A stretch of 64,000 nucleotides of DNA from Funiculus sociatus GB2-C1 (GTDB lineage: Bacteria; Cyanobacteriota; Cyanobacteriia; Cyanobacteriales; FACHB-T130). The position numbers and the translations under genes were made by a program. Each line of letters opens with the position of its first letter. The first letter of the stretch is position 1. The notes under the pieces are model-generated. The model saw nothing but the letters and a program-made list of their open reading frames with translations. It was not told the DNA's origin and searched no databases. Shown piece by piece: positions 270-24,703 of this stretch. The stretch spans positions 1 through 64,000 of the forward strand of contig NZ_JAMPKJ010000011.1 of assembly GCF_039962115.1 (NCBI RefSeq). The letters are read 5' to 3'.

Positions 270-341
270 GGGCGATTAGCACAGTGGTAGCGCACATCCT
301 TCACACGGATGGGGTCACTGGTTCAAATCCAGTATCGCCCA
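270..341 (+). tRNA. tRNA-Val(CAC), CAST attachment site
   Basis: A full cloverleaf can be folded. The acceptor stem GGGCGAT/ATCGCCC is followed by discriminator A at 341. The anticodon stem is CATCC/GGATG with loop TTCACAC, giving anticodon CAC for codon GTG, and the T arm is ACTGG/CCAGT with loop TTCAAAT. CCA is not encoded. The D stem (GCAC/GCGC) is imperfect. Positions 290-306 are the protospacer of the CAST homing crRNA at 554-570, with PAM GTA at 287-289. The transposon begins at 348, so the insertion left the tRNA gene intact. Confidence 0.93.
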
Positions 342-347: not shown

Positions 348-530
348 TGTACATTAACAAATTATTTGTCACTGATAACAAATTAGTGTCACTGATAACA
401 AATTAGTGTCACTGTTGTACGATGACTGATTAATTGCCATTGCTACCAGATTGCTGTCGTGGTGACGAATTATGTGTCGTTGAGACACATAAAGGTTCCT
501 GAAGTAGCAGTGACAAATTAATGTCATTGT
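348..530. repeat. CAST left end (LE) with TnsB-type binding sites
   Basis: The end begins TGTACATTAAC and holds a series of sites of the form (T)AACAAATT-n-TGTCA or GTGACRAATT-n-GTC. A first site is at 353-372. A perfect 20-bp tandem duplicate follows at 371-390 and 391-410. Degenerate sites lie around 423-440 and 444-460, and further sites at about 461-480 and 510-527. This matches the multi-site TnsB-binding ends of V-K CASTs. Being next to the homing crRNA and CRISPR array, it corresponds to the end called LE in the ShCAST literature. Confidence 0.85.
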
Positions 531-553
531 TGCAGGAACTATCTATCTAGATA

Positions 554-586
554 GTGTGAGGGATGTGCGCCTTTCAATCCACCCTA
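554..586 (-). ncRNA. Delocalised homing crRNA (divergent repeat plus tRNA-Val spacer)
   Basis: Read on the minus strand, a truncated repeat TAGGGTGGATTGAAAG (586-571) is followed directly by the 17-nt segment GCGCACATCCCTCACAC (570-554). That segment matches tRNA-Val positions 290-306 at 16 of 17 bases. The target has GTA immediately 5' of it, fitting the GTN PAM of V-K systems, and the transposon starts 58 bp after that PAM. Isolated crRNAs with short tRNA-matching spacers are the known homing guides of V-K CASTs. Compared with the array repeats it lost one G and carries a G-to-A change that improves pairing with the tracrRNA anti-repeat. Confidence 0.9.
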
Positions 587-615: not shown

Positions 616-1231
616 CTTTCAACCCACCCCTAGTGGGGATGGTCGTTGAAACCCACCAGGGGCGGCGATTCGCGATTCATCATACTTTCAACCCACCCCT
701 AGTGGGGATGGTCGTTGAAACGAAAACGAACTTCAATGTTGCTATCGCTCGTAACTGACCTTTCAACCCACCCCTAGTGGGGATGGTCGTTGAAACGATT
801 CATGGGACTCTCCTTATTCAGGGGATGGCGCTTTCAACCCACCCCTAGCGGGGATGGTCGTTGAAACGCAAATAACTTCAGCATCTTGACTGGCTTAATA
901 TCTTTCAACCCACCCCTAGTGGGGATGGTCGTTGAACTTTCTGTTTGTTGCCATTGCGGTAGGAGACATACTTTCAACCCACCCCTAGTGGGGATGGTCG
1001 TTGAAACCCAAACCGGAGTCCCTGTCTCGGTCTGGCTAACCTTCCTTTCAACCCACTCCTAGTGGGGATGGTCGTTGAAACTTTAAAACCTTGGAAAACA
1101 CCTTTGAGGAAATGCAGAACTTTCAACCCACTCCTAGTGGGGATGGTCGTTGAAACCGGCAACGCCAGAAGAATAAAGCCTGTTAAGGAAAATTCTTTCA
1201 ACCCACTCCTAGTGGGGATGGTCGTTGAAAC
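616..1231 (-). CRISPR. Type V-K CRISPR array, nine 36-37-bp repeats
   Basis: Repeats lie at 616-652, 685-721, 760-796, 831-867, 902-937, 971-1007, 1045-1081, 1120-1156 and 1195-1231, with eight spacers of 32-38 bp. On the minus strand each repeat begins GTTTCAACGACC and ends GGGTTGAAAG, very like the ShCAST repeat. Transcription should run from the cas12k side (1232 and above) towards the left end. The repeat at 902-937 lacks one A; the one at 831-867 has TAGCGGGG on the plus strand. The three leader-proximal repeats carry CACTCCTAG where the others read CACCCCTAG. A 29-bp segment at 587-615 separates the last repeat from the divergent homing repeat. Confidence 0.95.
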
Positions 1232-1427: not shown

Positions 1428-1660
1428 TTAAAGTGGATTCCTCCTTGCTCGGAGGTGATTCGATAGCCACCACTGCGGTAAACCCACACCCTTATTACTG
1501 GGAGCGCACCTGATTCCTATCCTCAAGGGATAGCAGCTTCGGGGTGGGCAGCTACCAGGGTCAGAAAGCAAGACTATCTTTCAATAGTCAAACTAACCCA
1601 AATTTTTCACAACTCAGCGGCTAATGAAAGCATGAGCTGCGGCGCTATTGCTCTATTCTA
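1428..1660 (-). ncRNA. tracrRNA of Cas12k
   Basis: The minus strand reads AATAGCGCCGC near 1653-1638 and continues through segments that closely follow the published ShCAST tracrRNA: GGGTTAGTTTGACT, CTTGCTTTCTGACCCTGG, TAGCTGC, GGTGCGCTCCCAG, AATAAGGG and GAATCACCTCCGAGC. It ends with an anti-repeat, AATCCAC at 1439-1433, complementary to GTGGGTT of the repeat with one G-U pair. A T-rich run follows at 1428-1414 and may end the transcript. It sits between cas12k and the array in the same orientation, the standard V-K arrangement. The 5' and 3' ends are estimates. Confidence 0.88.
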
Positions 1661-1687: not shown

Positions 1688-3601
1688 TCAAACATTGCGG
1701 CGGGCATGATAGGCAGCGATCGCTAATTCTTTTGCCTTGTCCTGGGGACTGCCTCGAATTGGCTGTTGTGCTGACTCGATCGCAATTCCAATCTTTGCGG
1801 CTTGATTATGAATGCACTCAATTAATCTGCCATAGCTCCATTGATGGACGCTAGTGCGGTATTGTTTGGCATATTTTTGCTGACCTTCCAAATATTCTGG
1901 GCATTTTTGTTCGGCTTTGGCTTGAATTTCGCTTTGAACCATTTCCCGCGTATTGTCTAATTTAGGTAGAACAATACTGCCTGCGTGGTAAGTTTGCGCG
2001 ATCGCCACAATTGCTTTAGCCAACAATCTGTCAATATACTGCCCCAACTCAGATTCTCCGAATTGATTGAAAGCAGCAATTCTTTGGGCATTGCGGCGTT
2101 GATGAGATAAGACTTGTTTTTGTTGCCGCTGTCGGTTGAGTAGTTGGTAATTTTCACCGAGTAGCTGGCGAATGCTTCGGTAGGTGATAGCTTTTCCTGC
2201 TAGAGCATCCACTACGGCTACGGTTGCAGGCTTTTCCAGACCCAAGCTGACACCAACCAGTAGGTGAGGTTGACCCTGATATAAAGGTTGACTGGGACGA
2301 GGGAAGGGGTTATTAATTCGGGCGAGTGTGGAATTCTTACGCTTGATAAAAGCTTCTTGTTGCTCGTTTAGGTCGCCTTTTTCTTTGGTTTTGGTAAGGA
2401 CCTTGGTAATTTCAGCAGCTTTCTCTTGCCGCACCTGTTCTGTGCCTTCAGCCGTCCACAAACGGGTATCAACAGAACAATAGAGGATTAGGTGGTGAAT
2501 GTTCCAGGGGTCGCCTTTGCCCTCTCCCTCTTGCCAAGCAAGTTTGCCACTACGGAGAGTAAATAAGCTACTGGAGTGCTGATTTTTGCTGTCGTGCTTG
2601 ATTTTTTGGTCTTCTAGGAAACGTTGGAACCAGTGTAGTTGTTGTCGATCGCAATATATTTGAAAGGTATGCTCGCCCAAACCGTTGAATTTTATGCACA
2701 GACGACCTTGGGAGTTTTTGAGCCAAGTGATGTCCTCGCTGGTTTCGTAGGTTACAGGAAATGGCACAGCAGAAGATTTTTTCAGGAGATGGTTTTGCCA
2801 GGACTTCGCTTGTGCTTCATCTTCAGGGACAGTGCTGGTGGCGATCTCTAATGTTTCTAACCAATTAGCATCGGTCAAATCCCGACCTTTGGGGACTTTA
2901 GCGCTTAGCTGTGCCTCTAAACGTTCAATCCGAATTTCAACTTGGCGACGGCGTTTAGCAAATTTTTCTGGGTTTTCTTCTCGATTGCTGACTTTGCAGC
3001 CGTTTTTGAGGAGGTAGGCGATCGCACACCGACTTAAGATGTCTTCTGTATTGCGGTAAGCATCGAATAGGCTTTGAGAAAGGCTACGGCTTTGTGCGGT
3101 TTTAGTTTTTTTAGTTTTCTTGCCTTGCTTGCTTTTTGGTGATTCCGGGTCAACAGTGTCGGACTGAGGAGCGAATTGAGTCAGAATTTCGGCGGCTTTG
3201 CTGCGGAGAGTATCTAAAGTAACACCGCTAGTTTCTAACAGGCCGGTATCGCTCTTGAGCATTTCTAGCCAGCGAGTTTTTCCTTCCAGTTGGTATTGCG
3301 ATCGCTTCATTAGCGCCAGCCAGGATCGGTAAATATAGTCCACTAATGCGATCGCACTGGTGTAAAACCGCCCCGGCTGACCGATAAATCGAGGGTCAGT
3401 TTTGAGCGGGTTGCACAGTTGCTTAACAATACCAGCTTGCAGCTTGCCTTTTTGTCGCCACGCCTCAAAGTCAGGATGATTGCTTACCTGTTCCAGCAAT
3501 TGGTTAACCAGGGGCGTATTTTTCTGTGCCATCAACTCCCAGAGTTGGCGGCGAGTAGTTTCACTGGTAACTAAACGACACTGAATCGTTATCTGACTCA
3601 T
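1688..3601 (-). CDS. cas12k: CRISPR effector Cas12k (catalytically inactive, type V-K)
   Basis: The 637-aa product matches the size of Cas12k (about 640 aa) and starts MSQITIQCRLVTSETTR as the family does. Cas12k uses a crRNA-tracrRNA pair to bind PAM-proximal DNA without cutting it, and recruits TniQ and TnsC to direct TnsB insertion. The C-terminal half carries the RuvC-like region (LLVGVSLGLEKPATVAVVD near residue 440), in which Cas12k proteins lack the acidic residues needed for cleavage; here Gly-Leu-Glu stands in the usual Asp-containing motif. A basic Lys-rich segment (KSKQGKKTKKTKT, about residues 156-170) is visible. The gene is divergent from the MerR-type gene at 3673 and shares its control region. 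Confidence 0.96.
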   Translation of the reverse strand: MSQITIQCRLVTSETTRRQLWELMAQKNTPLVNQLLEQVSNHPDFEAWRQKGKLQAGIVKQLCNPLKTDPRFIGQPGRFYTSAIALVDYIYRSWLALMKRSQYQLEGKTRWLEMLKSDTGLLETSGVTLDTLRSKAAEILTQFAPQSDTVDPESPKSKQGKKTKKTKTAQSRSLSQSLFDAYRNTEDILSRCAIAYLLKNGCKVSNREENPEKFAKRRRQVEIRIERLEAQLSAKVPKGRDLTDANWLETLEIATSTVPEDEAQAKSWQNHLLKKSSAVPFPVTYETSEDITWLKNSQGRLCIKFNGLGEHTFQIYCDRQQLHWFQRFLEDQKIKHDSKNQHSSSLFTLRSGKLAWQEGEGKGDPWNIHHLILYCSVDTRLWTAEGTEQVRQEKAAEITKVLTKTKEKGDLNEQQEAFIKRKNSTLARINNPFPRPSQPLYQGQPHLLVGVSLGLEKPATVAVVDALAGKAITYRSIRQLLGENYQLLNRQRQQKQVLSHQRRNAQRIAAFNQFGESELGQYIDRLLAKAIVAIAQTYHAGSIVLPKLDNTREMVQSEIQAKAEQKCPEYLEGQQKYAKQYRTSVHQWSYGRLIECIHNQAAKIGIAIESAQQPIRGSPQDKAKELAIAAYHARRNV

Positions 3602-3607: not shown

Positions 3608-3627
3608 TTAAAACATCCGTGTTTTAA
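3608..3627. promoter_or_regulatory. Candidate CvkR operator between cas12k and cvkR
   Basis: A perfect inverted repeat TTAAAAC-n6-GTTTTAA lies 7 bp upstream of the cas12k start, inside the 71-bp divergent intergenic region. CvkR-type MerR repressors of V-K CASTs are known to bind the cas12k promoter region. A palindrome this close to the cas12k start could block its transcription. Binding is inferred from position and symmetry. Confidence 0.6.
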
Positions 3628-3672: not shown

Positions 3673-4101
3673 ATGCAGGAGGCGTTTTTTACCAGCAAAC
3701 AAGCGGCTGAAATTACAGGTTGTACGCTTCGCCAGTTGCAGTATTGGCGAGAGAAGGGGGTAGTTGTACCTGCAATTAGCGCCACGGGTACGGGACGGAG
3801 TGTTTATTACTCGCGTTCGGATTTGGTGGAGTTGGCGGCGATGGAGTATTGTCTGTCCGTGGGGTTGAGTTTTGAGGCAGCAGCAACAACCCTAAAAAAA
3901 CTTAAGGAGAACGAACCAGAGTTTACGAACCCGGAAAGGCAAAGCAGGTTTATGTTGTGCTGGAATGCTAATGAGCGATCACTTGAACTGGTGGAGTTCG
4001 AGCTTTATGTTGCGATCGCATTAATAAAAGAAGGTGAGCTTGTGATTCCTGTGTGGCTGGATCGGATTCATCAGCGGGTAGCGAAGAGGTTAGCTGAGTA
4101 G
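3673..4101 (+). CDS. cvkR: MerR-type CAST regulator, CvkR-like
   Basis: The 142-aa protein has an N-terminal MerR-type winged-helix DNA-binding domain ([24 protein letters not shown]..., residues 5-75), followed by a short dimerisation region ([14 protein letters not shown]). No metal-binding Cys cluster is seen. Its place divergent from cas12k matches CvkR (Alr3614 of Anabaena sp. PCC 7120), a described repressor of type V-K cas12k expression. By that precedent it should keep Cas12k and possibly tracrRNA levels low. The start at 3673 is used because an upstream ATG at 3668 is out of frame. The gene could also influence the cargo downstream, since hsdM follows on the same strand. Confidence 0.85.
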
Positions 4102-4168
4102 AGCGATCGCGTTTATGGTGATAAAGCATCGCGTCCCAGGAAATTTTGAGGAAAAGCATACATTATCT

Positions 4169-5710
4169 ATGGGCAAACTGACATTACCACAACTTGAACG
4201 TCACCTTTTTGCTGCTGCTGATATCCTGCGGGGGAAGATGGACGCTTCGGATTTCAAAGAGTATATCTTTGGGATGCTGTTTCTCAAACGCGCTTCGGAT
4301 GTGTTCGAGCAGCGCTACGAGCAGATTGTGCAGGATAATCTGAAACGGGGACGCACACCGGAAGAGGCGAAGCAGAGGGCAGAAAACCCCATTAGTTACC
4401 GAGAGGCGTTTTTTGTACCAGAGAAGGCGCGGTGGGCGTATATTCGCGATGAGCTGCATCAAAATGTTGCGGATGGGCTGAATAAGGCTTTGGGCACACT
4501 TGGAGATAGTAACCAAGCTCTGGCGGGTGTATTGACTCACATTGATTTCAATCGTCAGGCGGGAAGAAGTCGCATTCCTGATGTGAAGCTGCGGGAACTG
4601 ATTAAGCACTTCAGCAGGTATCGGCTGCAAAATGAGGATTTTGTGTTTCCTGACTTGTTGGGTGCGGCTTATGAGTACCTGATTGCTGAATTTGCCGATT
4701 CTGCGGGGAAGAAGGGCGGCGAGTTTTATACGCCGCGTGAGGTGGTGCAGTTGATGGTGCGGCTGTTGAAACCTCAACAAGGGATGTCGGTTTATGACCC
4801 CTGTTGTGGTTCTGGGGGGATGCTGATTCAGTCGAAGCAGTATGTGGAAGAGTGCGGCGGGGATGCCAGAAATCTGGCGCTGTACGGTCAGGATAATAAT
4901 GGCGGGGTGTGGGCAATTTGCAAAATTAATATGCTCTTGCATGGGATTCGGGATGCGGATATTCATAATGACGATACGCTGTTCAATCCCTTACACGTCG
5001 AAGGCGGGGAACTAATGCGCTTTGACCGGGTAATTAGTAATCCGCCTTTCTCCCAAAACTATACCCGTGAAGGAATGCAGTTTCCAGGGCGGTTTATGTA
5101 TGGATGGTGTCCGGAGACGGGGAAGAAGGCAGATTTGATGTTTGCCCAGCATATGCTGTCTGTTCTCAAGACGGATGGGATGATGGCGACAGTGATGCCG
5201 CATGGGGTGTTGTTTCGTGGCGGTGAGGAGAAGAAGATTCGTGAGAGTTTTATTGAAAATGACATCCTGGAAGCGGTGATTGGGTTGCCGCCGAATTTGT
5301 TTTATGGGACGGGGATTCCTGCCTGTATTTTGGTGATGCGTTCCAAGGGGGCGAAACCTGTGGAACGTCGGGGGCAGGTGTTGTTTATTAATGCGGATGC
5401 AGAGTATTATGGGGGTCGCGCTCAGAATTATCTGCGTCCTGAGCATATTGAAAAGATAGCGTTTGTGTTTGAACGGTTTGAGTCTTTCAATGGTTATTCG
5501 GCGGTGGTGAGTAAGGAGGAATTGGCAGAGAATGATTACAACTGCAATATCCGTCGCTACGCCGATAATGCACCACCTCCGGAACCCCAGGATGTGAGGG
5601 CGCATTTGTTGGGGGGGATTCCGAAAGCTGAGGTAGAGGCGAAGAGTCCTTTGTTAGAGGCGCATGGGTTTAACCCAACTAGGATTTTAGTGGAACTGAA
5701 GGTGACTTGA
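4169..5710 (+). CDS. hsdM: Type I restriction-modification methylase HsdM, N-terminal and catalytic part
   Basis: The protein is about 513 aa from the preferred start [14 protein letters not shown] at 4169; the frame is open to an ATG at 4115, but family homology begins at the later Met. It has the HsdM N-terminal helical domain ([25 protein letters not shown]) and an N6-adenine methyltransferase domain with the SAM motif DPCCGSGGM and catalytic NPPF. It would methylate adenine in a complex with HsdS. Many related HsdM proteins run on through a linker HGFxPT into a second domain, TERSQIKxxIESDxGVQA. Here the frame stops after [15 protein letters not shown] and that domain appears as a separate gene at 8690, so hsdM is split. 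Confidence 0.93.
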
Positions 5711-5847
5711 GCCATTGAAGGCAATCATCCTTCTCAAGTTTTACGGCCTGTGGTTTTAGCTTTCTATGATTAATAGGGCGGGTACTACCTACCAAAACCT
5801 ACATAGCCTTCAAATACCACCCCTGGGACAAACTAGCAAGAAATCTT

Positions 5848-6975
5848 ATGAGTCCTAATGCCTTCGTGGATAATGGCTTTCCTTCAGGCATCGACTTCTG
5901 TATCCAATTCCTTTCCAGCCCAGAATTCAATGTTGTAACTCTACGAAAGCTGGCTCCGTCAGCATCAAGTAAGGAAAAGAAGCAAGACCTTGCCTTGCGT
6001 GTCGCTCATGCTCTTGAACAAGGTCAACTTACATCGAACCAAGTTCTGCTTGAGTATGTAAAACAACCAAGGATGTGGTTGAGCCTAAAGCAAGGACAAT
6101 GTGAAAAAACACCCAATCTCAAATCTCCTGCTCAATTACTTAGGGAATTTGGGAAACAGGGTTGGTATGGCCCAATTACAGACTCTACTACTCCTCGGAA
6201 ATGGTACATTCACATCTCTAAAATCCCTGACTACGTTCGTAGGGGAAGTGGTGAAGCTAGCGAAGTAGACAAACGCTATATTCGGTGGCCTGTCATCGCT
6301 GAAGTCCGTCATAATTACGTTGCTCTACATTGGGAGGGATTTACATTCACCGAAATAACCGAAGCTCACACAGATCAAGCAGTGCAGTTTCCCTTCTGGC
6401 GTGATATTCATATTCCCAAACTCTTTGATGAACTGACCGAGCACTTGCAAGGTTATTGGGTTCATCCCAATCTTCATCGATTAGTTCTACATGAGATGTG
6501 GAACAAATATCTAGAAGATTTCCATTACATATGGCAGCACTTGCTAATTAGGGCAGAAGCAGACGGAGTGGCTTTGAACGCTCGTAGTTCTGGAGTGACT
6601 GAAGTTAATGTAAAGGGATTAAAGGCACTAGCACGAAAATTAGCTGAGTCGGCCTCAGAAAGGCTGGGACTTTCAGATAATTGTGAGCAAATAACCCATG
6701 TCGAAAATGCTCTCTTGCGTACTCTCATAAAAGAGTGGGGTACTAAGTCATATGAATTTAGCCTGGACAGGAAACCCGATTCGAGCGAAGCTAGCTCTCA
6801 AGATGCAGACAATAAGGCTGAATTAGAGAATCTCTTCAAAGCACACTGTTACTTTGGACTTAAGCAGGATTCTACTCAAGATTCTCTTCAGCACCTAAAG
6901 TGCCATTCAAGATACTATGGAGGTAGTACGGGTGTACTCAAATTTCTCCTCAGGGAACTTGGACTCCCAGGCTAA
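5848..6975 (+). CDS. Unknown protein, first gene of a three-gene cargo operon
   Basis: I do not recognise this 375-aa soluble protein. It has no signal peptide or membrane segment. The centre is rich in aromatic and His residues (RWPVIAEVRHNYVALHWEGFTF near residues 145-170, then a WVHPNLHRLVLHEMW stretch), the next part is helical, and an acidic-polar linker (KPDSSEASSQDADNKAELE) precedes a C-terminal helical region. The next gene starts 4 bp after its stop and a PD-(D/E)xK nuclease follows, so all three probably act together. It may be the sensor or specificity component. It begins 137 bp after the first half of hsdM, inside the split. Confidence 0.75.
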   Translation: MSPNAFVDNGFPSGIDFCIQFLSSPEFNVVTLRKLAPSASSKEKKQDLALRVAHALEQGQLTSNQVLLEYVKQPRMWLSLKQGQCEKTPNLKSPAQLLREFGKQGWYGPITDSTTPRKWYIHISKIPDYVRRGSGEASEVDKRYIRWPVIAEVRHNYVALHWEGFTFTEITEAHTDQAVQFPFWRDIHIPKLFDELTEHLQGYWVHPNLHRLVLHEMWNKYLEDFHYIWQHLLIRAEADGVALNARSSGVTEVNVKGLKALARKLAESASERLGLSDNCEQITHVENALLRTLIKEWGTKSYEFSLDRKPDSSEASSQDADNKAELENLFKAHCYFGLKQDSTQDSLQHLKCHSRYYGGSTGVLKFLLRELGLPG

Positions 6976-6979
6976 GGCA

Positions 6980-7345
6980 ATGCCCAGCTTCATTTGTAAA
7001 GGACGGTTAGACTTCCTGTCTAGCGAACAGAAGGCTGAACTTAGTAGGCACTTCAGGAAGCAGGGTACACAAGCCATGCCACATCAGCTTGCTGTTCTTT
7101 TGGGGTTGAAATACGCTGACGCGCTTGCAATCTTAACTGTTCTTGAAACAGAAGGGCTTTGCGAAAATAAACTTCTCATTTATCACAGATGCGATCCGGA
7201 AGTGCCAGCAGGGGCAATTCCATACGGCAAAGGCTTTCCTGATTTACCGTGGGTTTGTCCTTTGTGTGAAAAGATAATCGAAGATTACAATGAGTTGTCT
7301 TTTGATGTCATGGCACAGTCCACTCAGCCAATCGAATTTGTTTAG
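6980..7345 (+). CDS. Winged-helix/CxxC small protein, second gene of the operon
   Basis: The start MPSFICKGRLDFLS at 6980 gives 121 aa; the frame is open to 6917 but that would overlap the preceding gene by 59 bp. Residues 14-58 look like a winged helix (LSSEQKAELSRHFRKQG, then HQLAVLLGLKYADALAILTVLETEGL). The C-terminal part has a Cys at YHRC followed about 23 residues later by CPLC, suggesting a small metal-binding knuckle. It lies 4 bp after the 375-aa gene and 7 bp before the nuclease gene. It could be a DNA-binding adaptor or a regulator of the module. I know no named family for it. Confidence 0.72.
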   Translation: MPSFICKGRLDFLSSEQKAELSRHFRKQGTQAMPHQLAVLLGLKYADALAILTVLETEGLCENKLLIYHRCDPEVPAGAIPYGKGFPDLPWVCPLCEKIIEDYNELSFDVMAQSTQPIEFV

Positions 7346-7352
7346 TTGAACC

Positions 7353-8123
7353 ATGCCTAGTCAAGAGGAACTCGTTCAATCCGTTATCGATGCTCTAGCA
7401 CTTCTTGACAAAAATGATCCGGCATCAGATAAGCTAGCAACTTATTTGTACATTGCAGACAGAAGACTTTCAGATTATCTCGATCAGCTCAGGGAGTTCA
7501 CACAACTGGAAAGTCCTACACTTTCGGAAAGTAAAAAAGGCGGTGAGCTGCTAGAACAAGTTGCCTTTCTGGCCTTTCAGGGATTCAAGGGAGTCACAAG
7601 TTTAAAGAGCTTTCAGTCAGCAGGCCCTCAATATGATCTTCTAGTTAGTGGAGACCAACCAGCTTGGTTACATGTTTGTAATCTGCTCTATCTTAAAGAA
7701 AACCAGAGAGGTATAGTAGTCGAGGCAAAAGCCACAAAGCAACGATTGCCGGACAAACAGTTTGCGCGACTGTGCAGCATCATGGAGCTAAATCTCTCAA
7801 GCATAGTTGGCCTTGGAGTGTTCTTCACACTGAAGGGAGCAGCTGGATTCCCTGAAAGAGGAAGCTCTAGACAGCGAATCATCAGAGATTGTCGGCTTCG
7901 TCAAGTGCTTTTTCATGCTAAGACCCAGAAATTAATTGTTGTCCTAGATAAAGATGATATTTTTGAGCTAGGTAAAAATGGCACTTTAATTCAGATACTC
8001 GTTAGGAAGATTAGAGATTTATGCGAACTAAGTGGTCTTCCAACTCCTCCAGTTGATGAACCCAAAGAGATGATAGATTTACCCAATCACCTGAAGCAAC
8101 TATACGAGGCTTCTGACACTTAG
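7353..8123 (+). CDS. PD-(D/E)xK nuclease-like protein, third gene of the operon
   Basis: This 256-aa protein shows a restriction-endonuclease-like core: GGELLEQVAFLAFQGF (Glu65/Glu68 on the first helix), QYDLLVSG (Asp95), then GIVVEAKAT (Glu124, Lys126), and a following helix with Gln (DKQFARLCSIM). This is the order of motifs in Mrr-type and related nucleases. The N-terminal 60 residues are helical and may bind partners; a hydrophobic strand region and an ILVRKIRDL helix follow the core. It is the likely effector of the module at 5848-8123. Its target (phage DNA, modified DNA or something else) cannot be inferred from sequence. Confidence 0.8.
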   Translation: MPSQEELVQSVIDALALLDKNDPASDKLATYLYIADRRLSDYLDQLREFTQLESPTLSESKKGGELLEQVAFLAFQGFKGVTSLKSFQSAGPQYDLLVSGDQPAWLHVCNLLYLKENQRGIVVEAKATKQRLPDKQFARLCSIMELNLSSIVGLGVFFTLKGAAGFPERGSSRQRIIRDCRLRQVLFHAKTQKLIVVLDKDDIFELGKNGTLIQILVRKIRDLCELSGLPTPPVDEPKEMIDLPNHLKQLYEASDT

Positions 8124-8149
8124 AAAGATGAGTGAGTGCAATTGCTGAA

Positions 8150-8356
8150 TTATCTTCCACTCTGCAATATCGCTTTGCTAAATCGCCACGTCAGAACACC
8201 TGCTGCCACAGTAAGACTGATCGCCAATCCCCACCATAGCCCAACGCCGCCAAATCCTAATACAATCCCCAAGGTGTAGCCGCCGGGCAAGCCAATTCCC
8301 CGATATGCCACAATGCCAATCCATAGGGGAATTTGGGCTATGGCTGGCTTTCTCAA
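8150..8356 (-). pseudogene. Fragment of a MATE-family efflux transporter
   Basis: The 68-aa minus-strand frame reads GIGLPGGYTLG and GVGLWWGLAISLTVAA, which resembles the last two membrane segments of MATE (NorM/DinF-type) multidrug efflux pumps. The rest of a roughly 450-aa transporter is missing. It overlaps, on the opposite strand, the YARHG fragment at 8333. It is a decayed relic between the three-gene operon and the second half of hsdM, and it marks old rearrangement of the cargo. Confidence 0.6.
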
Positions 8357-8608
8357 AGGCGAATCACAGAGGCGGAGTTAGATGGTCGTAACGCTTTGTC
8401 CCTCGATTTGTTACGCAACGCAGTTTTTGCTCGTCACGGACGGCGATTTGTAAATTCAACCTTGCAGGATTATTTCAACAGCCAACCCTGGTACACGCCA
8501 CGTTATAACCCTGAGCAATTCCCAGCGCGTTTGCTGACACCCATCGAGCGGCACAACGTTGATACGATTCTCCGGTATCAGGAGCGGACTGGACAAAGGT
8601 ACTTTTGA
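8333..8608 (+). pseudogene. YARHG-domain fragment
   Basis: The 91-aa frame contains LRNAVFARHGRRFVN, DYFNSQPWYTP and LTPIERHNVDTIL, the signature of the YARHG domain (first Tyr replaced by Phe), usually found at the C-terminus of secreted or membrane-anchored proteins. The first ten or so residues come from sequence antisense to the MATE fragment, so the normal N-terminal part, including any signal peptide, is lost. No ribosome binding site is evident. It is most likely a 3' remnant rather than a working gene. Confidence 0.6.
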
Positions 8609-8689
8609 TGGACGTTCAACAAGGGTGCAGCAGTAGCTTGAGCAAAGTCGGCTATTGTGTCATAACGGATGAAAGTTACTCAAGTGTGA

Positions 8690-9766
8690 ATGACCGATTA
8701 CTTGGATTTTGCTCCTAGTGTTACGGAGCGCTCTCAAATCAAAGCCTTTATCGAATCTGATGTCGGAGTTCAAGCGACTGAAGCGAAGCTCTACGGCGTC
8801 TTTTCGGCTTGGTGGCAGTTGCACGCGCCAGGTTTGGGGGAGTTGCCGAAGACGAAGAAGGTGATGGAACTGAGGGCGGAGTTTTTGACTTCGTTTGTTG
8901 ATAGCCTCGAACCTGTCGGTTTACTTGACCGCTTCAAGGTGGCGGGAGTGGTGGCGAGTTGGTGGGATGAGGTGAAGTATGAACTCAGAACGCTCTCAGA
9001 ATCGGATTTTGGCGGGTTGGTGGATAGTTGGGTGGATACGATTCGGGATGCTCTAGAGCAAGATGATGAGACGCAGAAGAATCAGACGAAGTTCGACCCG
9101 CTCAATCATAAGCTGGTGGTGCGGTTGATGCCGGACTATCTGGAGGAAATTGCTGATGCTGAGGCGAGAATTGCCCAGTTAGAGCAGCAAAAGGAAGCCT
9201 TTGAACGGGGGGAAGAGGCGGAGGCGGAAGAGGGAGAAGCCAGCGAGGAGGAGTCGGAGGCGGTTAATTTTGCTAAGGAGTTGGAGACAAGGCTCAAGAC
9301 TCTGAAAGGTTCGATTAAGGAGCCGAAGAAGGATATTAAGGATTTAAGGAAGAATTCGCCGTTGTTGAATGCGGCTAAAATCGCAGAACTTGAGGCGAGG
9401 GTTGAGCCGATGGAAGCGGAAATTGCCGAGATTGAGAAACAACTGGAACCCTATAAGGAAATTAAAAAGCAACTGGCTCAAGCGAAGGGGATACTGAGGA
9501 CGCTCAAGAATGAATTGGTGAAGCGTTTGGACGCTAAACGTGCGGCGTTAACGGATGAGGACTGTCAGGGGTTGGTGTTGGCGATTTTCAAGGATGGCTT
9601 AACGGCTGAATTGGAGCGATATGTCTCGGCTCACCGTCAGCAGGTAATTGTGGCGGTTGAGAATTGGTGGGATAAGTATCGGGTGACGTTGCAGGATATT
9701 GAAGCTCAACGGGATGCGGCGCGTCAGCAGTTGAGTGAGTTTTTAAGTGGGTTGGGGTATGCGTGA
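8690..9766 (+). CDS. HsdM C-terminal domain encoded as a separate gene
   Basis: The 358-aa product begins MTDYLDFAPSVTERSQIKAF, ESDVGVQATEAKLYGVFSAWW, and continues to VGLLDRFKVAGVVASWW, a region normally fused after the methylase domain in long HsdM proteins. The middle is a long charged coiled coil (residues 145-290, with an acidic EEAEAEEGEASEEE patch). The C-terminal part (WWDKYRVTLQDIEAQRDAA) probably packs with HsdS. Together with the 4169-5710 product it should rebuild one M subunit. hsdS overlaps its last 8 bp. No clear Shine-Dalgarno precedes the start, so expression may depend on transcription through the upstream module. Confidence 0.8.
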   Translation: MTDYLDFAPSVTERSQIKAFIESDVGVQATEAKLYGVFSAWWQLHAPGLGELPKTKKVMELRAEFLTSFVDSLEPVGLLDRFKVAGVVASWWDEVKYELRTLSESDFGGLVDSWVDTIRDALEQDDETQKNQTKFDPLNHKLVVRLMPDYLEEIADAEARIAQLEQQKEAFERGEEAEAEEGEASEEESEAVNFAKELETRLKTLKGSIKEPKKDIKDLRKNSPLLNAAKIAELEARVEPMEAEIAEIEKQLEPYKEIKKQLAQAKGILRTLKNELVKRLDAKRAALTDEDCQGLVLAIFKDGLTAELERYVSAHRQQVIVAVENWWDKYRVTLQDIEAQRDAARQQLSEFLSGLGYA

Positions 9767-11114
9767 GACTCTGGTTAAGACTGAGGAGCTTAAGGATTCG
9801 CCAGTAGAGAAGATTCCAAAAGATTGGGAAATTGTTTCTCTAAAAAATGAGATTAATATACTTCATGGCTACGCTTTCGAGGGTGAATATTTTTCTGATG
9901 AACCTCCCGGAGACGTACTTTTAGTTCCTGGTAATTTCCACAGAGACGGGGGACTTTATTTTGATGATAATAATACCAAGTATTATCGAGGGTTAATTCC
10001 TGATGGTACTGTCTTAGAAAACGGACAACTCCTTATTGTAATGACTGACCTCTCGCCCAGAACACTTATTTTGGGGCGAGTTGTCCTGCTAGAATTACCG
10101 TTTCGAGTTTTACATAACCAACGAATTGGGAAAATTGTCCCAAAGCTACCCAATACGTGGGACAAGCGCTTTTTGTTGCTTGTGATGAATAGCGACATGG
10201 TGCGGCGCAACATCATCAGCAATGCAACAGGTACAACAGTGCGACATACTTCGCCAGATCGGATTCTCGCGAATGTAGTTCCCAAGCCACCTATTGAAGA
10301 ACAAAGCAAAATTGCCGAGATTCTCAACACGATAGATGAGACGATCGCACATACCTCCTCCCTCATCGCCAAGTTCAAGCAGATGAAGGCTGGACTGCTG
10401 CACGACTTGCTGACACGGGGGTTAGATGAGAATGGGGAATTGAGGGATGCGATCGCGCACCCTGAACAGTTCAAAGATTCACCACTGGGACAAATTCCAA
10501 GTGATTGGAAGTGTGAGAAGTTGCAACATTTATGTAAAACTCCAATCCGTGATTTTGGGAGTTTTTCAATGACTAACTTAATTCAATTCCTAAATTCAGG
10601 TATCCCTTTTTTGAAGTCAGAGATGGTTGAAGAAGAAAATCTAAATACAGAAAACTTAACTTTCATTTCTCTTAAAGTTCACAACTTACTAAAAAAATCA
10701 TGGGTATATCCAGGCAATATTTTATACAGCAAGATTGGTTCTGCTCTTGGAAAAGCAGTTTTGTATGATGGTCATTTAGGTATTTGTAACAGCAATGCTG
10801 CTATTGCAAAAATTGATATTAATGAAACGATTGCCCTACCTATGTATGTTGTCCATATTTTGAACTCAATTGAAGGAAAAGGAAGAATAATGAAAAGTAT
10901 TGTTAGCCTTCTTCCTAGAATTAATTTAACTGATATCTATAATTTTGAGCTTGCTCTACCACCTATTTCAGAGCAGCATAGAATTATTGAAATTCTTGAG
11001 TCAAATGAAAAAAGAATCAATGCAGAAGAAGCCTACTGCGAAAAGCTCAAACTCCAGAAACAAGGACTGATGCACGACTTATTAACTGGAAAAGTGCGAG
11101 TCAAAGATGCTTGA
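9759..11114 (+). CDS. hsdS: Type I restriction-modification specificity subunit HsdS
   Basis: HsdS recognises the bipartite target and positions HsdM and HsdR. The 451-aa protein has two target recognition domains. The first covers residues 1-185 and ends PPIEEQSKIAEILNTIDE; the central helical repeat is FKQMKAGLLHDLLTRG; a second domain starts DSPLGQIPSDW and ends PPISEQHRIIEILES; the C-terminal repeat is LKLQKQGLMHDLLTGKVRV. The second domain (about 10500-10980) is clearly more AT-rich than the rest, typical of exchanged recognition domains. The ATG at 9759 overlaps the preceding stop (ATGCGTGA); a GTG at 9747 is an alternative. The macrodomain gene overlaps its last 8 bp. Confidence 0.93.
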   Translation: MRETLVKTEELKDSPVEKIPKDWEIVSLKNEINILHGYAFEGEYFSDEPPGDVLLVPGNFHRDGGLYFDDNNTKYYRGLIPDGTVLENGQLLIVMTDLSPRTLILGRVVLLELPFRVLHNQRIGKIVPKLPNTWDKRFLLLVMNSDMVRRNIISNATGTTVRHTSPDRILANVVPKPPIEEQSKIAEILNTIDETIAHTSSLIAKFKQMKAGLLHDLLTRGLDENGELRDAIAHPEQFKDSPLGQIPSDWKCEKLQHLCKTPIRDFGSFSMTNLIQFLNSGIPFLKSEMVEEENLNTENLTFISLKVHNLLKKSWVYPGNILYSKIGSALGKAVLYDGHLGICNSNAAIAKIDINETIALPMYVVHILNSIEGKGRIMKSIVSLLPRINLTDIYNFELALPPISEQHRIIEILESNEKRINAEEAYCEKLKLQKQGLMHDLLTGKVRVKDA

Positions 11115-11634
11115 ACTTAAGCAAGGCAACCTATTGGAAGAAGATGCTGAAGCCCTAGTAAATGCCGTTAATTGCGTCGGCGTTATGGGTAAGGGTATCG
11201 CCTTGCAGTTTAAACAGGCATTTCCTGAAAACTTCCAGCAATATAAAAAGGCTTGCGATGCCAAGGAAGTGCAGCCTGGGCAAATGTTTACCGTTCCCAC
11301 AGGGAAGTTATTCAATCCCAAATACATTATCAACTTTCCCACCAAACGCCACTGGAGAGAAAAGTCAAAAATCGAAGATATTCAGAGTGGACTCAAGGCA
11401 CTTGTGGCAGAAGTTCAGCGGTTAGGTATTACTTCGATTGCTATCCCTGCTTTAGGATGCGGTAACGGTGGATTAGATTGGTTAGAAGTCAAACCCCTGA
11501 TTGAATCAGCGTTTGCCGAACTGCCAGAGGTAAAGGCAATTGTTTTCGAGCCTTCTCAGTCACATCTAAACAGAAAAAGACCCTCTAACCCGAAAAATGC
11601 GAGTCAAACTACCATAGACTCATATCTTGCATAG
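11107..11634 (+). CDS. Macrodomain protein, DarG/ADP-ribosyl glycohydrolase-like
   Basis: The 175-aa protein carries a macrodomain: GNLLEEDAEALVNAVNCVGVMGKGIALQFK, then INFPTKRHWREKSKIEDI and IAIPALGCGNGGLDW. These are the motifs of DarG-type macrodomains, which remove ADP-ribose from DNA. No DarT toxin gene is adjacent. The C-terminal 30 residues (SHLNRKRPSNPKNAS...) are basic and low in complexity. It overlaps hsdS by 8 bp, so it is translated with the restriction-modification operon. It may guard against self-damage or counter ADP-ribosylation of host or phage molecules; the substrate is inferred from family only. Confidence 0.85.
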   Translation: MLELKQGNLLEEDAEALVNAVNCVGVMGKGIALQFKQAFPENFQQYKKACDAKEVQPGQMFTVPTGKLFNPKYIINFPTKRHWREKSKIEDIQSGLKALVAEVQRLGITSIAIPALGCGNGGLDWLEVKPLIESAFAELPEVKAIVFEPSQSHLNRKRPSNPKNASQTTIDSYLA

Positions 11635-11635
11635 T

Positions 11636-11755
11636 CCCTCAGACTAGAAGTCTGGGGCTATACAACCTAAGTCCGCCTGCGCGGACTCGCTGGAATTCCA
11701 AGGGTTAAACCCGCGCAGGCGGGTTTTGTTTGTGTAGCCGCGATTTCTAATCGCC
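11636..11755. repeat. Dispersed palindromic repeat, copy 1
   Basis: The stretch holds AAGTCCGCCTGCGCGGACT, an arm AACCCGCGCAGGCGGGTTTT, and ends in TTTGTTTGTGTAGCCGCGATTTC. A related copy occurs at 54560-54670 and a degenerate one near 62555-62605. It lies between the macrodomain gene and vapB and could also act as a terminator for the upstream genes. It looks like a small non-autonomous cyanobacterial repeat. Confidence 0.7.
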
Positions 11756-11798
11756 AGACGATGTGAGATAGACCTAACGCAACGCAAAGAGGCATATT

Positions 11799-12101
11799 AT
11801 GGCAACACTCACCATCGACAACCTACCCGATGACTTAATGGCACAACTTCAACAACTTGCCACCCAAAATAATCAACCCCTTAACGAACAAGTCATCAGC
11901 CTGCTAAAACAAGCCTTACAAAAACCTCAACCTCCCCTAAAATTCCTCATTTCCCCTGAAACTGACCCCACCTGGGAAGAACGCCGAAAAGCAACCCCAC
12001 AAATTCTTGCTGATATCGAACGCCGTCGAAAAGAACTGCCTTCAGATATTGAATGGCTAGATAGCACCGCCCTGATTCGAGAAGATAGAGACAGCCGATG
12101 A
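11799..12101 (+). CDS. VapB-like ribbon-helix-helix antitoxin
   Basis: The 100-aa protein opens MATLTIDNLPDDLMAQLQQLA and continues NNQPLNEQVISLLKQALQ, the ribbon-helix-helix fold of FitA/VapB-type antitoxins. The C-terminal half (WEERRKATPQILADIERRRKELPSDIEWLDS) is the polar toxin-binding tail. The toxin gene overlaps it by 4 bp (ATGA at 12098). The pair is expected to be autoregulated by the antitoxin, and in this mobile context it could stabilise the element after transfer. Confidence 0.85.
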   Translation: MATLTIDNLPDDLMAQLQQLATQNNQPLNEQVISLLKQALQKPQPPLKFLISPETDPTWEERRKATPQILADIERRRKELPSDIEWLDSTALIREDRDSR

Positions 12102-12550
12102 CAACCCCGATTAAATGCGTCGTTGACGCCAGTGTGTGCATCAAACAATTTGTTCCCGATCCGCTATCTACCAAAGCACAGCAACTGTTTGCCCATCTTG
12201 CCAATCCCCTTCAGGAAATTTACATACCCGATCTGTTCTATATCGAGTCTGCTAATACCCTCTGGAGATATGTTCGTGCAGGGCAGTTGACGGCTACCCA
12301 AGTTCAAGCGAATTTAGCGACACTCAAAGCCTTATCGCTGCGAGTTGTTTCCACGGCTGAGTTGATGGAAGAAGCGGTTAATATCGCGATCGCTTACGGA
12401 ATTTCTGCCTACGATGCCTCTTATGTCGCCCTTTCCCACCGAGTCAGTTCTCCTTTGCTAACTTTAGACCAGAGGTTGGTGAATACTTTAGCAACCGCAC
12501 CCTATGACGTGCGTTTGTTTACCGACTTCTCTGTTCCTCCCTTGCCCTAA
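12098..12550 (+). CDS. VapC-like PIN-domain toxin
   Basis: The 150-aa product is a PIN-domain ribonuclease. Visible acidic residues are Asp in CVVDASVCIK, Glu in YIESANTLWRY, Asp in SAYDASYVALS and Asp in LLTLDQRL, the four metal-binding positions of VapC. It is coupled to the antitoxin gene by a 4-bp overlap and is followed 3 bp later by hsdR. Insertion of a toxin-antitoxin pair within the restriction-modification operon fits its use as a maintenance or alarm device. The RNA target is unknown. Confidence 0.87.
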   Translation: MTTPIKCVVDASVCIKQFVPDPLSTKAQQLFAHLANPLQEIYIPDLFYIESANTLWRYVRAGQLTATQVQANLATLKALSLRVVSTAELMEEAVNIAIAYGISAYDASYVALSHRVSSPLLTLDQRLVNTLATAPYDVRLFTDFSVPPLP

Positions 12551-12553
12551 CCG

Positions 12554-15500
12554 ATGCCCCAACCAACGCCAGAATATATCTACGTTGAAAAGCCGACCAT
12601 TGACCAACTTGTAAGTATGGGTTGGCAGTACATCGAAGGCAGTTGGGACGACCCCCAAGTTACCGATCGCGAGAACTTCAAGCAAGTCCTAATTAGCGAT
12701 CGCCTAAAAGCCGCCATCAAGCGCATCAACCTCGACGACAACGGCAACCCTTGGCTCGATGATACCCAAGTGAATGCCGCTGTGAGTCAGCTAGAACGTC
12801 TGACATCACAAAGACTGATGGAAGCCAATCAAGCGGCTACAGAATTACTCCTCAAAGGCACCACCGTTTTAGGGCAAGACGGCAAACAGCACACCGTCCA
12901 CTTCATCGACTTCGAGCATCCTGAAAATAACGGCTTCCTCGCCATCAATCAATACCGAGTAGACCCCCCTTGGGCAACAGGCAACCGAGGGTTTATCGTC
13001 CCGGACATCGTGCTACTCGTCAACGGCATCCCCCTCGTCGTCATCGAGTGCAAAAGCCCTAAACTCGATAACCCCATCACAGAAGCCATCCGCGACTTGT
13101 TGCAATATTCCAACCAACGGGGAAGCAGCCAACCGGAAGGCGCAGAAAAGCTATTCCACTACAACCAGTTAATGATAGCCGCCTCTGCGGGACGGGCAGC
13201 AGCAGGAACCATCGGCGCAAACTACGAGCATTATGTCGAGTGGAAAGATACCACTCCCCGCCCCAAAGCCGAAATTGCCGCAGAACTCGGCGTTACCGAA
13301 CTCAACTCCCGCCAAATGCTCATTGCCGGGATGCTACACCCCGCAAACCTCCTCGACATCCTGCGAAACTTCACCTTGTTCAAAACCAGCGGCGGACGCA
13401 CGATTAAACTCGTCCCCCGTCACCAACAATATCGGGCAGTCCACGAAGCAATCGGGCGACTCCTGCACAACCCAACCCGCACCCAACACGGCACCGATGA
13501 CCAACGCGGCGGTATCATCTGGCATACTCAAGGTTCCGGCAAAAGCCTGACAATGGTGTACCTGATACGGAAAATCCGCACTATCCCCGCCTTGCGCCGC
13601 TTTAAGATAGTCGTCGTTACCGATCGCACGGACTTAGAAAAGCAACTCTCCGATACAGCCGTCCTGACAGGCGAACCCTTACAAAGAGCGAAAAACGTCA
13701 AAAAGCTAGAAGAGTACCTCAAACAACCCGGTGCTGGCTTAGTCTTCGGGATGATTCAGAAATTCAAAGGCGGCGAAGATTCCGAGGAAGAAGAAGAAAT
13801 TGAGCCAATCAAGAAAAACCTCAATCCTTCCGAAGATATCCTAGTCCTAATTGACGAAGCCCACCGTTCCCACGCCAGCACCCTCCATGCCAATCTCTTG
13901 GAAGCCTTACCCAACTGCGCCCGCATCGGCTTCACTGGCACTCCCATCGAAACGAGTGCCAAAACAAACACTAGGCGCATCTTTGGTTCCTTTATCGACC
14001 AGTACAACATCCGCCAATCCCAAGCAGACGGTGTTACCTTGCCTATCCTCTACGAAGGCTTAGAAGCCAGAGGTGCCGTTACTTCTGGCGATGACCTCGA
14101 CCAACTGTTTGAAATCATCTTTCAGGATAAAACCCCAGAAGAACGGGCGCAAATTAAAGCCAAATACGCTACTAAAACCCAAGTCTCCGAAGCACGGGAA
14201 CTGATTAAAGCCAAAGCCCGGAATATGCTGCGCCACTATATCGAGCGTATCCTACCCGGAGGCTTCAAAGCTCAAGTCGTTGCCTCTACCCGTCTCGCCG
14301 CCGTGCGCTACCAGGAGGCATTTGCCGAAGCGCAACAGGCACTGGTGCAACAACTCCAATCTCGCGCCGCCATCTTAGCAAGTCTAAACCCCGAAACCTT
14401 AGAATCCCTGGATGCAGAAACTGGCTTTCTCGCCTTAGCCTTCCCGCACCTAGACACCATCCGCCGCTTAGAATTTGCCACCGTCATCTCCTCGGACAAA
14501 AACGACGACCCAAGCTGGAAAAAGTGGACAGATAAGAGTCAACAAGAAACCCATATCGAGCGATTCAAAAAGCCGTTAGAGCAAGATAGTTTGGCGATTT
14601 TAACGGTGAAAAGTATGCTCCTGACAGGCTTTGATGCCCCACTGGAGCAAGTTTTATATTTAGACCGGGGCATGAAAGAATATGAATTGCTGCAAGCCAT
14701 TGCCCGTGTCAACCGCGTCTATGACGATACCAAGAAATATGGGCTAGTCGTCGATTACTACGGTGTTGATATCGCGGCTGCCCTCTCTGTTTACGAGAAT
14801 GTGGATATCGAAAATGCTTGGTTTGATATTCGCCAAGAATTGCCCAAACTGCGCGACAAACACCAGCGAGTGATTGCCTTATTCACCCAAAACGGCTGCA
14901 TGATTGATGACGTAGAAAGCTGTGTAGACTTACTCCGAGACGAACGCCTGCGCGTCGAATTCAACGACACATTCAAAGATTTCCTCGACACCCTCGACAC
15001 CATCCTCCCCCGCCCGGAAGCCTTGCCCTATGTCAAAGATGCCAAGAAACTCGGTTTAATTAAAAAATCCGTTGCTGACCTTTACCGGGATGAAAAACTC
15101 AACCTTGTCAGCGCCAAAGAGAAAGTTCGGGCATTAATTGACCAATACATTGAATCCCAAGGAATTGACCCGAAAGTACCGCCGATTGATATCCTGTCCT
15201 TGGACTTCAAAACCCACGTCCAGCGCCATCGCTCAATTAAAGCACAAGCGGCAGAAATGGAATTCGCTGCCCGTCACCACATCAGCATCCACTATGATGA
15301 AGACCCGGTTTATTACAAAAACCTGAGCGAAAAACTGACAGAAATTCTTGACTCTCTTGCCGACAACTGGGACGAAAAAGTTGAAGCGTTACGCCAGTAT
15401 ATCGAACAAATCCAAGCAGGTCGCCCCACCAATGAAACGGGACTCGACCCGAAAACTCAGCTTCCCTTCCTCAACATCTTGGGCGAACATTCACAGATAG

Positions 15501-15721
15501 AACTGCCCAAACTCGCCCAAGCTACTGTAGAAATTGTCGATCGCATCCGCCAAGAAGTGCGGCGGGTAAATTGGGCAAGTCCCATTGTCCAAGAAGACTT
15601 GAGACGCTGGATAGCCGACTACTTGGATACTAACGATTTAGTGGACTACGACCAACTCGAAGAAGTGGCGGATAAACTGGTGCAACTTGCCCGCAAGAAT
15701 CGTGATAGTTTGATGGCATGA
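12554..15721 (+). CDS. hsdR: Type I restriction enzyme HsdR
   Basis: The 1055-aa motor and nuclease subunit has an N-terminal PD-(D/E)xK domain (FIVPDIVLLVNGIPLVVIECKSP, about residues 148-170). A superfamily 2 helicase follows, with Walker A HTQGSGKSLTM near 325, DEAH box LIDEAHRSHAS near 432, FTGTPIET, and a later LLTGFDAP...RVNRVYDD region. The C-terminal helical part binds the methylase core. It would translocate DNA and cut unmodified sequence. It follows vapC by 3 bp and ends in an ATGA overlap with the metalloprotease gene, so these genes are co-transcribed. Confidence 0.95.
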   Translation: MPQPTPEYIYVEKPTIDQLVSMGWQYIEGSWDDPQVTDRENFKQVLISDRLKAAIKRINLDDNGNPWLDDTQVNAAVSQLERLTSQRLMEANQAATELLLKGTTVLGQDGKQHTVHFIDFEHPENNGFLAINQYRVDPPWATGNRGFIVPDIVLLVNGIPLVVIECKSPKLDNPITEAIRDLLQYSNQRGSSQPEGAEKLFHYNQLMIAASAGRAAAGTIGANYEHYVEWKDTTPRPKAEIAAELGVTELNSRQMLIAGMLHPANLLDILRNFTLFKTSGGRTIKLVPRHQQYRAVHEAIGRLLHNPTRTQHGTDDQRGGIIWHTQGSGKSLTMVYLIRKIRTIPALRRFKIVVVTDRTDLEKQLSDTAVLTGEPLQRAKNVKKLEEYLKQPGAGLVFGMIQKFKGGEDSEEEEEIEPIKKNLNPSEDILVLIDEAHRSHASTLHANLLEALPNCARIGFTGTPIETSAKTNTRRIFGSFIDQYNIRQSQADGVTLPILYEGLEARGAVTSGDDLDQLFEIIFQDKTPEERAQIKAKYATKTQVSEARELIKAKARNMLRHYIERILPGGFKAQVVASTRLAAVRYQEAFAEAQQALVQQLQSRAAILASLNPETLESLDAETGFLALAFPHLDTIRRLEFATVISSDKNDDPSWKKWTDKSQQETHIERFKKPLEQDSLAILTVKSMLLTGFDAPLEQVLYLDRGMKEYELLQAIARVNRVYDDTKKYGLVVDYYGVDIAAALSVYENVDIENAWFDIRQELPKLRDKHQRVIALFTQNGCMIDDVESCVDLLRDERLRVEFNDTFKDFLDTLDTILPRPEALPYVKDAKKLGLIKKSVADLYRDEKLNLVSAKEKVRALIDQYIESQGIDPKVPPIDILSLDFKTHVQRHRSIKAQAAEMEFAARHHISIHYDEDPVYYKNLSEKLTEILDSLADNWDEKVEALRQYIEQIQAGRPTNETGLDPKTQLPFLNILGEHSQIELPKLAQATVEIVDRIRQEVRRVNWASPIVQEDLRRWIADYLDTNDLVDYDQLEEVADKLVQLARKNRDSLMA

Positions 15722-16416
15722 CCACCATCACCTTTGGCGACCTCAGTTTTGAACTGCGCCACAGTGCCAAACGTCGCACCATCGGCATCACCGTCGAACG
15801 GGACGGTCAATTAATCCTGGCATCTCCTCCAGAAGTGCCGATGGAAACGCTGGAGAAAGTGGTTCGGGACAAACGCCTCTGGATTTACAGCAAACTCCTC
15901 AAAAAAGAATCCCTCAATCCCCCCACTACTGTCAAAGAATACGTTTCAGGAGAAGGGTTTTATTACCTGGGACGCAGCTATCGCCTCAAGTTGGTGGATG
16001 GTGTGAAGCAACAGCCACCCCTGAGACTCTACCAAAGCCGCTTTGAATTGCAGCGCGACGCACAGGCACGGGGGAGAGAAGAGTTTATTCGATGGTATTG
16101 CGATCGCCTACGCCTGATTTTAGATGCACAGATTGCCGCTTTTGTCAATCGTGTTGGGGCTTCTCCCCGTTCGGTGCAGGTACGCGAGTTAGGCTACCGT
16201 TGGGGTTCATGCGGACATAAAGGAGATTTATATTTTCACTGGCGAGTGGCGATGCTGCCGCGAACCATGATTGAGTATGTGGTGGTTCACGAGTTGGTGC
16301 ATCTGATTGAACCGCACCATACTACTGGGTTCTGGGATAGGGTGGAGCGGGTTGTGAGTGATTGGTGCGATCGTAAACAGTGGTTAGCCCAAAATGGGGC
16401 AAGTTATGACCTTTAG
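15718..16416 (+). CDS. YgjP-like zinc metallopeptidase associated with hsdR
   Basis: The 232-aa protein shows the zinc motif VVHELVHLIEPHHTTGFW (HExxH plus the later His) of the YgjP/DUF45 group, within the M48-like peptidase superfamily. It begins TTITFGDLSFELRHSAKRRTIGITV, the usual N-terminal beta-rich part. It is not secreted. The gene overlaps hsdR by 4 bp, an association often seen in type I restriction-modification loci, where it may process or turn over HsdR. That role is inference; the metallopeptidase motif is plain. Confidence 0.88.
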   Translation: MTTITFGDLSFELRHSAKRRTIGITVERDGQLILASPPEVPMETLEKVVRDKRLWIYSKLLKKESLNPPTTVKEYVSGEGFYYLGRSYRLKLVDGVKQQPPLRLYQSRFELQRDAQARGREEFIRWYCDRLRLILDAQIAAFVNRVGASPRSVQVRELGYRWGSCGHKGDLYFHWRVAMLPRTMIEYVVVHELVHLIEPHHTTGFWDRVERVVSDWCDRKQWLAQNGASYDL

Positions 16417-22550: not shown

Positions 22551-22553
22551 CGC

Positions 22554-24269: not shown

Positions 24270-24304
24270 AATTGTTTTATAGCAACATATTTGTATTTTA
24301 GGAA

Positions 24305-24549: not shown

Positions 24550-24656
24550 TTAGTTGTAGAGTGACTAATTGTTTGTCTAGACAGATTATTGTCAATTAAG
24601 ACGAATTATAATATGTCTTCGTGCCAAATTGATGTCGTTGAACTATTAGTGACCCC
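24544..24656. mobile_element. Relic of a second CAST left end
   Basis: Reading rightwards from TGTACA at 24544, sites of left-end type follow: GTGACTAATTGTTTGTC (24561-24577), GACAGATTATTGTC, GACGAATTATAATATGTC (24600-24617) and GCCAAATTGATGTCGTTG. Their order and orientation mirror a V-K left end pointing away from the present element. The TGTACA hexamer is shared with its right end. No transposition genes follow, so only the end survives. Confidence 0.7.
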
Positions 24657-24703
24657 TCACGTTTGGAAAAAACAGCTTTCCTTACCGTTAGTTAGCAGAA
24701 AGC

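Follow-up and report, generated by a model that had tools for sequence, protein, structure and literature searches.

Two questions are raised by the segment at positions 554 to 586 of the window, which is the whole 64,000-nucleotide stretch of DNA analyzed here and is the first part of a contig of 122,872 bases (C11) from a genome of about 6.5 Mb: what this short unit beside a transposon end might be, and why its 17-nt portion matches the neighboring tRNA-Val gene at every base except one. With a probability of about 0.88, we judge the unit to be the anchor (delocalized, or homing) crRNA of a type V-K CRISPR-associated transposon (CAST) that homes to tRNA-Val, and the mismatch to be a T-to-C change of the spacer in the PAM-distal half of the guide, where mismatches are commonly tolerated. 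The features on which this assessment draws are the following.

270–341, plus strand: tRNA-Val(CAC), the attachment gene (ARAGORN; Rfam RF00005, 64.5 bits)
287–289, plus strand: PAM GTA, a GTN sequence (sequence; survey)
290–306, plus strand: anchor protospacer within the tRNA gene, matching at 16 of 17 bases
348–537, plus strand: transposon left end with TnsB-site-like repeats and terminal TGTACATTAACAAATTATTTGTCAC (sequence; resembles other V-K left ends)
554–570, minus strand: anchor (homing) spacer of 17 nt, GCGCACATCCCTCACAC
571–586, minus strand: truncated repeat R*, TAGGGTGGATTGAAAG (sequence; survey)
616–1231, minus strand: CRISPR array with nine 37-nt repeats (Rfam CRISPR-DR15 nine times; Rfam lists the opposite strand)
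1428–1653, minus strand: tracrRNA region, ends approximate (homology to other V-K tracrRNAs; anti-repeat AATCCAC at 1439–1433)
1688–3601, minus strand: Cas12k, 637 aa (PADLOC Cas12k, 1083 bits; NCBIfam V_Cas12k, 1010 bits, cut-off 150)
3673–4101, plus strand: MerR-type regulator in the CvkR position, divergent to cas12k (Pfam MerR_1, E = 2.5e-17)
21205–21714, minus strand: TniQ (Pfam TniQ)
21714–22550, minus strand: TnsC (Pfam TniB/AAA_22)
22554–24269, minus strand: TnsB transposase (Pfam Mu-transpos_C, rve)
24311–24549, minus strand: transposon right end, whose outer terminus repeats the left one in inverted form

The element is a complete type V-K (Cas12k) CAST that occupies positions 348–24549 and adjoins the tRNA-Val(CAC) gene. 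Its left end starts with TGTACATTAACAAATTATTTGTCAC at 348 and the inverted copy of this sequence ends at 24549; the TGTACA-type ends, 348–374 on the plus strand and 24523–24549 on the minus strand, differ at 2 of 27 positions. Reading from the tRNA, the order is left end, anchor unit, array, tracrRNA region, cas12k, MerR regulator, cargo, and tniQ-tnsC-tnsB, which is the gene order of the published V-K CAST layout. TnsB, TnsC, and a single TniQ are recognized by Pfam at 21205–24269, and no TnsA-like family was detected among the subset of window ORFs that was scanned. A strong promoter-like sequence (TTGACA-16-GATAAT) was located by a promoter scan at 1687–1660, next to the tracrRNA region. 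One Cas12k gene was found in the genome, and the relatives of its product in named genomes are cyanobacterial.

The spacer GCGCACATCCCTCACAC, on the minus strand, agrees with tRNA positions 290–306, GCGCACATCCTTCACAC, at 16 of 17 bases, and the sole mismatch is a C for T at spacer position 11, which corresponds to tRNA nucleotide 32. The matched site is preceded by GTA at bases 287–289, and the distance from this PAM to the left end of the element, which starts at 348, is 58 bp. Upstream of the spacer and on the same strand lies R*, TAGGGTGGATTGAAAG, a shortened copy of the array repeat, whose end is AGGGGTGGGTTGAAAG. The R*-spacer unit sits between the array and the left end, on the array strand. 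The initial annotation, which had reported the one-mismatch match, the GTA PAM, and the 58-bp distance and had taken a homing crRNA to explain both the insertion site and its orientation, is borne out on each of these points by the V-K CAST anchor layout, the match, the PAM, and the spacing. It had also named better matches of the spacer at unrelated sites as an outcome that would speak against this reading; in the 6.47-Mb host genome, tRNA-Val(CAC) proved to be the only PAM-bearing match with 3 or fewer mismatches, and no alternative or better target was found within these limits.

For the window element, we infer a sequence of events in which the anchor unit would be transcribed, R* would pair with the tracrRNA anti-repeat and load Cas12k, and the 17-nt spacer would guide Cas12k to the tRNA-Val(CAC) gene via the GTA PAM. 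TniQ, TnsC, and TnsB would then place the element 58 bp beyond the PAM, immediately 3′ of the tRNA and with its CRISPR end turned toward that gene. Because spacer and tRNA share the same sense, the crRNA would not base-pair with the tRNA itself. The T-to-C mismatch at spacer position 11 would fall in the PAM-distal half of a 17-bp heteroduplex and would presumably be tolerated by the window element. An RNA-DNA heteroduplex of 17 bp has been seen in the structure of the ShCAST transpososome (PMC9876797).

Anchors were surveyed by taking Cas12k loci from named genomes and from 391 genomes of the order, and by searching the DNA downstream of cas12k. An anchor was recognized by an R*-like end (a 10-mer with at most 2 mismatches) followed by a 17-mer matching a site on the opposite strand 60–1600 bases further on. 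Two doubtful loci were left out of the statistics, one with a chance-level match (L156) and one with a non-GT PAM (L147), and the survey then comprised 94 anchors with 63 distinct spacer/protospacer pairs. The genome sets overlap, and this overlap was handled by counting distinct pairs. An anchor was lacking within 4 mismatches at 27 Cas12k loci, which represent contig ends, degenerate loci, or loci with a diverged R*. The PAM is GTN in 93 of the 94 anchors. The identity between guide and target drops from 0.95 to 0.33 between positions 17 and 18, which puts pairing at exactly 17 nt, in agreement with the ShCAST heteroduplex. A perfect match to the occupied site was observed for 55 of the anchors, and one or two mismatches for the other 39 (41%, duplicates included), or for 32 of the 63 when distinct pairs are counted.

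Mismatches are distributed unevenly along the spacer. Among 39 independent events, for which related cases were grouped by the similarity of their spacers and not on a tree, only 5 are at positions 1–8 and 34 are at the PAM-distal positions 9–17 (binomial p = 8e-6). This bias shows that seed-mismatched anchors are weeded out and do not persist. V-K anchors as a class are therefore under functional selection, and PAM-distal mismatches are tolerated. Because 41% of anchors are mismatched and most events fall within positions 9–17, the mismatch at position 11 of the window anchor is an ordinary one. Some observations do count against the best explanation. Position 11 is rarely mismatched, the window anchor being the one case among the 39 events, and the resulting rC:dA combination is not a wobble pair. 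Likewise, the flanks of the element contain just 1 extra base compared with a same-species genome and no clean 5-bp duplication, a matter that is taken up below. The window is the only place in the survey where tRNA-Val(CAC) is the target, the other Val targets being tRNA-Val(GAC) and tRNA-Val(TAC). A gap of only 45 nt separates its R* from the array, compared with a survey median of 112.

The T-to-C change is, as judged from sequence comparison, on the spacer side, because every tRNA-Val found has T and the exact PAM-plus-spacer sequence is absent from phylum genomes and viral contigs. When the mismatched base was left open, about 114 tRNA-Val-like hits were recovered from 113 of 293 order genomes, all with T, and the exact PAM-plus-spacer sequence occurred in 0 of 386 phylum genomes and in none of the viral contigs searched. 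The initial annotation had entertained homing to a slightly different donor tRNA and had recommended a search for cyanobacterial tRNA-Val genes with the exact 17-mer; no C variant was found in the 293 order genomes, and this proposal does not hold up within the genomes searched. It is true that a mismatch exists and that other V-K anchors (such as L142) sit at a tRNA other than their best match, but given these searches we consider it very improbable that the spacer was made for a donor-genome tRNA-Val whose nucleotide 32 is C. A change on the spacer side could also have occurred after insertion, in which case the spacer was still perfect when the element homed, and the C represents neutral decay that no further transposition has put to the test. 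This possibility, which overlaps with the best explanation and amounts to a sub-question of timing, is less likely than not. It agrees with the presence of T in all tRNA-Val genes seen. The C may have been there at the time of insertion or may have come later, as a search of the 391 genomes for sister elements sharing this anchor found none. However, decay of this type would spread over all 17 positions, and the concentration of events in positions 9–17 speaks against it as an argument at the level of the family rather than of this single case.

Another interpretation is that the mismatch was selected and tunes the guide, either by lessening re-insertion at the occupied site or by lessening the blocking of transcription of an essential tRNA gene by Cas12k. 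The high proportion of mismatched anchors (41%) could be read this way, as could the over-representation of position 15, which accounts for 10 of the 39 events (p = 0.003 within positions 9–17, uncorrected, and about 0.03 when corrected for nine positions), and the fact that the tRNA-Ala anchors L028, L099, and L124, among others, are altered in different ways at one and the same anticodon base. Yet 55 of the 94 anchors are perfect despite an occupied site, including ten directed to tRNA-Pro(CGG), and the window change is at position 11 rather than 15, which makes this interpretation quite unlikely. Given these 55 perfect anchors, there is no need for the earlier suggestion that the mismatch weakens re-targeting of the occupied site. 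There is a negligible chance that the resemblance is fortuitous and that the 17-mer is not a guide at all. When 17-mers sampled from both element strands were checked against all sites that follow a GTN in the flank (1–347), the anchor was the only one of 16,124 with fewer than 4 mismatches; in addition, the R*, PAM, spacing, and strand are all correct, and the same arrangement is present at 93 other Cas12k loci. A homing guide with an ordinary PAM-distal mismatch remains the preferred reading.

A more far-reaching idea concerns V-K homing guides in general, which might be tuned and not just tolerant. PAM-distal mismatches, with their excess at position 15 and repeatedly at the tRNA-Ala anticodon, would then be favored by selection, either because they moderate the binding of Cas12k at essential tRNA genes or because one guide can thereby move between related tRNAs. 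The window change at position 11 would be one case. We regard this idea as unlikely. If it were true, the anchor would become a privileged guide through an R* whose pairing with the tracrRNA surpasses that of the array repeats, as it does in 31 of 48 combinations, against 11 with the opposite outcome.

Certain observations on position 15 can be recorded separately. In six tRNA-Ala anchors (L028, L099, L110, L119, L124, and L135), the changes are at spacer position 15, which corresponds to an anticodon base of the target, and the substituted base differs between elements. The spacer of anchor L142 reads as tRNA-Lys(CTT), but its element is located at tRNA-Met(CAT), from which the spacer differs at position 15 only. 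This one case suggests that mismatch tolerance may let guides shift between tRNAs and that a switch of attachment tRNA is possible. A period-6 pattern of mismatches (positions 3, 9, and 15), seen by eye, was set aside, as there is no structural reason for it in Cas12k and the counts are too small.

The truncated repeat of the window offers a further point of comparison with the array. The window R* ends with GTGGATTGAAAG, and its GTGGATT is fully paired with the tracrRNA anti-repeat AATCCAC (1439–1433, minus strand), whereas the window array repeats (GTGGGTT) need a G-U pair with the same anti-repeat. Across related loci, pairing of R* with the tracrRNA is better than that of the array repeat in 31 of 48 anti-repeat/R*/array combinations, equal in 6, and worse in 11. 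By distinct anti-repeat type, R* pairs better in 14 and worse in 3 (14 of 17 informative types, p = 0.013). These counts point to a trend toward better predicted pairing by R*. Better pairing as a general rule was dropped, since there are clear counter-examples (L040, L152, L162, and L148).

The insertion site can be compared with that of a same-species genome (G062, locus L047), which carries the same tRNA-Val and flank without the element and reads CCCATATATT joined directly to TAGTTGTAG. In the window, the element is flanked by CCCATATATT and TTAGTTGTAG, which is 1 base more than in G062. Tn7-like elements are expected to produce a 5-bp target-site duplication. No clean 5-bp duplication is seen at the element flanks, which read ATATT and TTAGT. 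The missing duplication can be read as a trimming of the junction by about 4 bp, next to an older end, after the insertion, or else as an irregular insertion, and it has no consequence for how the machinery or the anchor is identified. A resemblance to a V-K left end is seen both in the sequence that follows the tRNA in L047 and in the sequence after position 24549 of the window; for L047, the similarity to the left end of L023 is 82% over 88 bp. An older V-K element therefore once resided at this tRNA-Val, of which only an end is left, and the present element inserted directly beside this remnant, which persists in both genomes. In the window, the remnant is a decayed left end that occupies positions 24550–24690 and abuts the right end of the present element.

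The arrangement of the anchor spacer is already known for V-K CASTs, whose anchor protospacers usually lie in a tRNA gene close outside the left end, and the window is a further natural example of it. The published layout consists of R*, a 17-nt anchor spacer, a GTN PAM, and a distance of 46–82 nt from PAM to left end (PMC9938897). With the V-K CASTs described there, including AnCAST of Anabaena sp. PCC 7120, the window element shares a 17-nt spacer behind a truncated repeat near the left end, the GTN PAM, a tRNA directed toward the element, and a PAM-to-end distance within the published range (58 in the window), as well as an array and tracrRNA downstream of cas12k, a divergent MerR regulator, and tnsB-tnsC-tniQ at the right end (PMC9938897). 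It differs from them in its tRNA-Val(CAC) target, the one mismatch, the 45 nt between R* and the last repeat, and the lack of the published CvkR box at cas12k and tnsB. The delocalized crRNA of ShCAST (Saito et al. 2021; Hsieh and Peters 2021), as it is described in PMC11406308 and PMC12719977, also combines a truncated repeat with a 17-nt spacer aimed at a tRNA gene and directs RNA-guided insertion just downstream; according to the same descriptions, the published ShCAST example targets tRNA-Leu and involves another Cas12k lineage and cargo. Homing guides of type I-F3 CASTs likewise tolerate mismatches to the chromosomal site (PMC11406308, section 3.3.2), but these systems use a Cascade effector and guaC, yciA, ffs, or rsmJ att sites, and tolerance is reported there on the basis of experiments.

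The window locus thus adds one more natural case of RNA-guided homing to a tRNA gene, and a useful by-product of following up its anchor is a mismatch profile for the family. The survey provides a natural specificity profile of Cas12k homing guides, with exactly 17 paired bases, a strict GTN PAM, protected positions 1–8, and frequent mismatches at positions 9–17. Why the use of att sites by V-K CASTs is so changeable, and whether native spacers are optimized, are listed as open points in a review (PMC11406308); the profile bears on both and supplies concrete mismatches for transposition assays.

Some features of the regulator and the cargo are also apparent. A motif search found the published CvkR box to be absent at the cas12k and tnsB promoters. 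The sequence AAACA-N4-TGTTT has just 2 copies in the window (0.16 expected), at 3611–3624, between cas12k and the MerR gene, and at 24264–24277, in the tnsB start region, and it is a candidate operator of a divergent CvkR. The cargo in 4115–16416 includes a type I restriction-modification system (HsdM at 4115, HsdS at 9747, and HsdR at 12554), a macro-domain/DarG-like protein at 11107–11634, an RHH antitoxin and PIN pair at 11799–12550, and a YgjP-like peptidase at 15718–16416.
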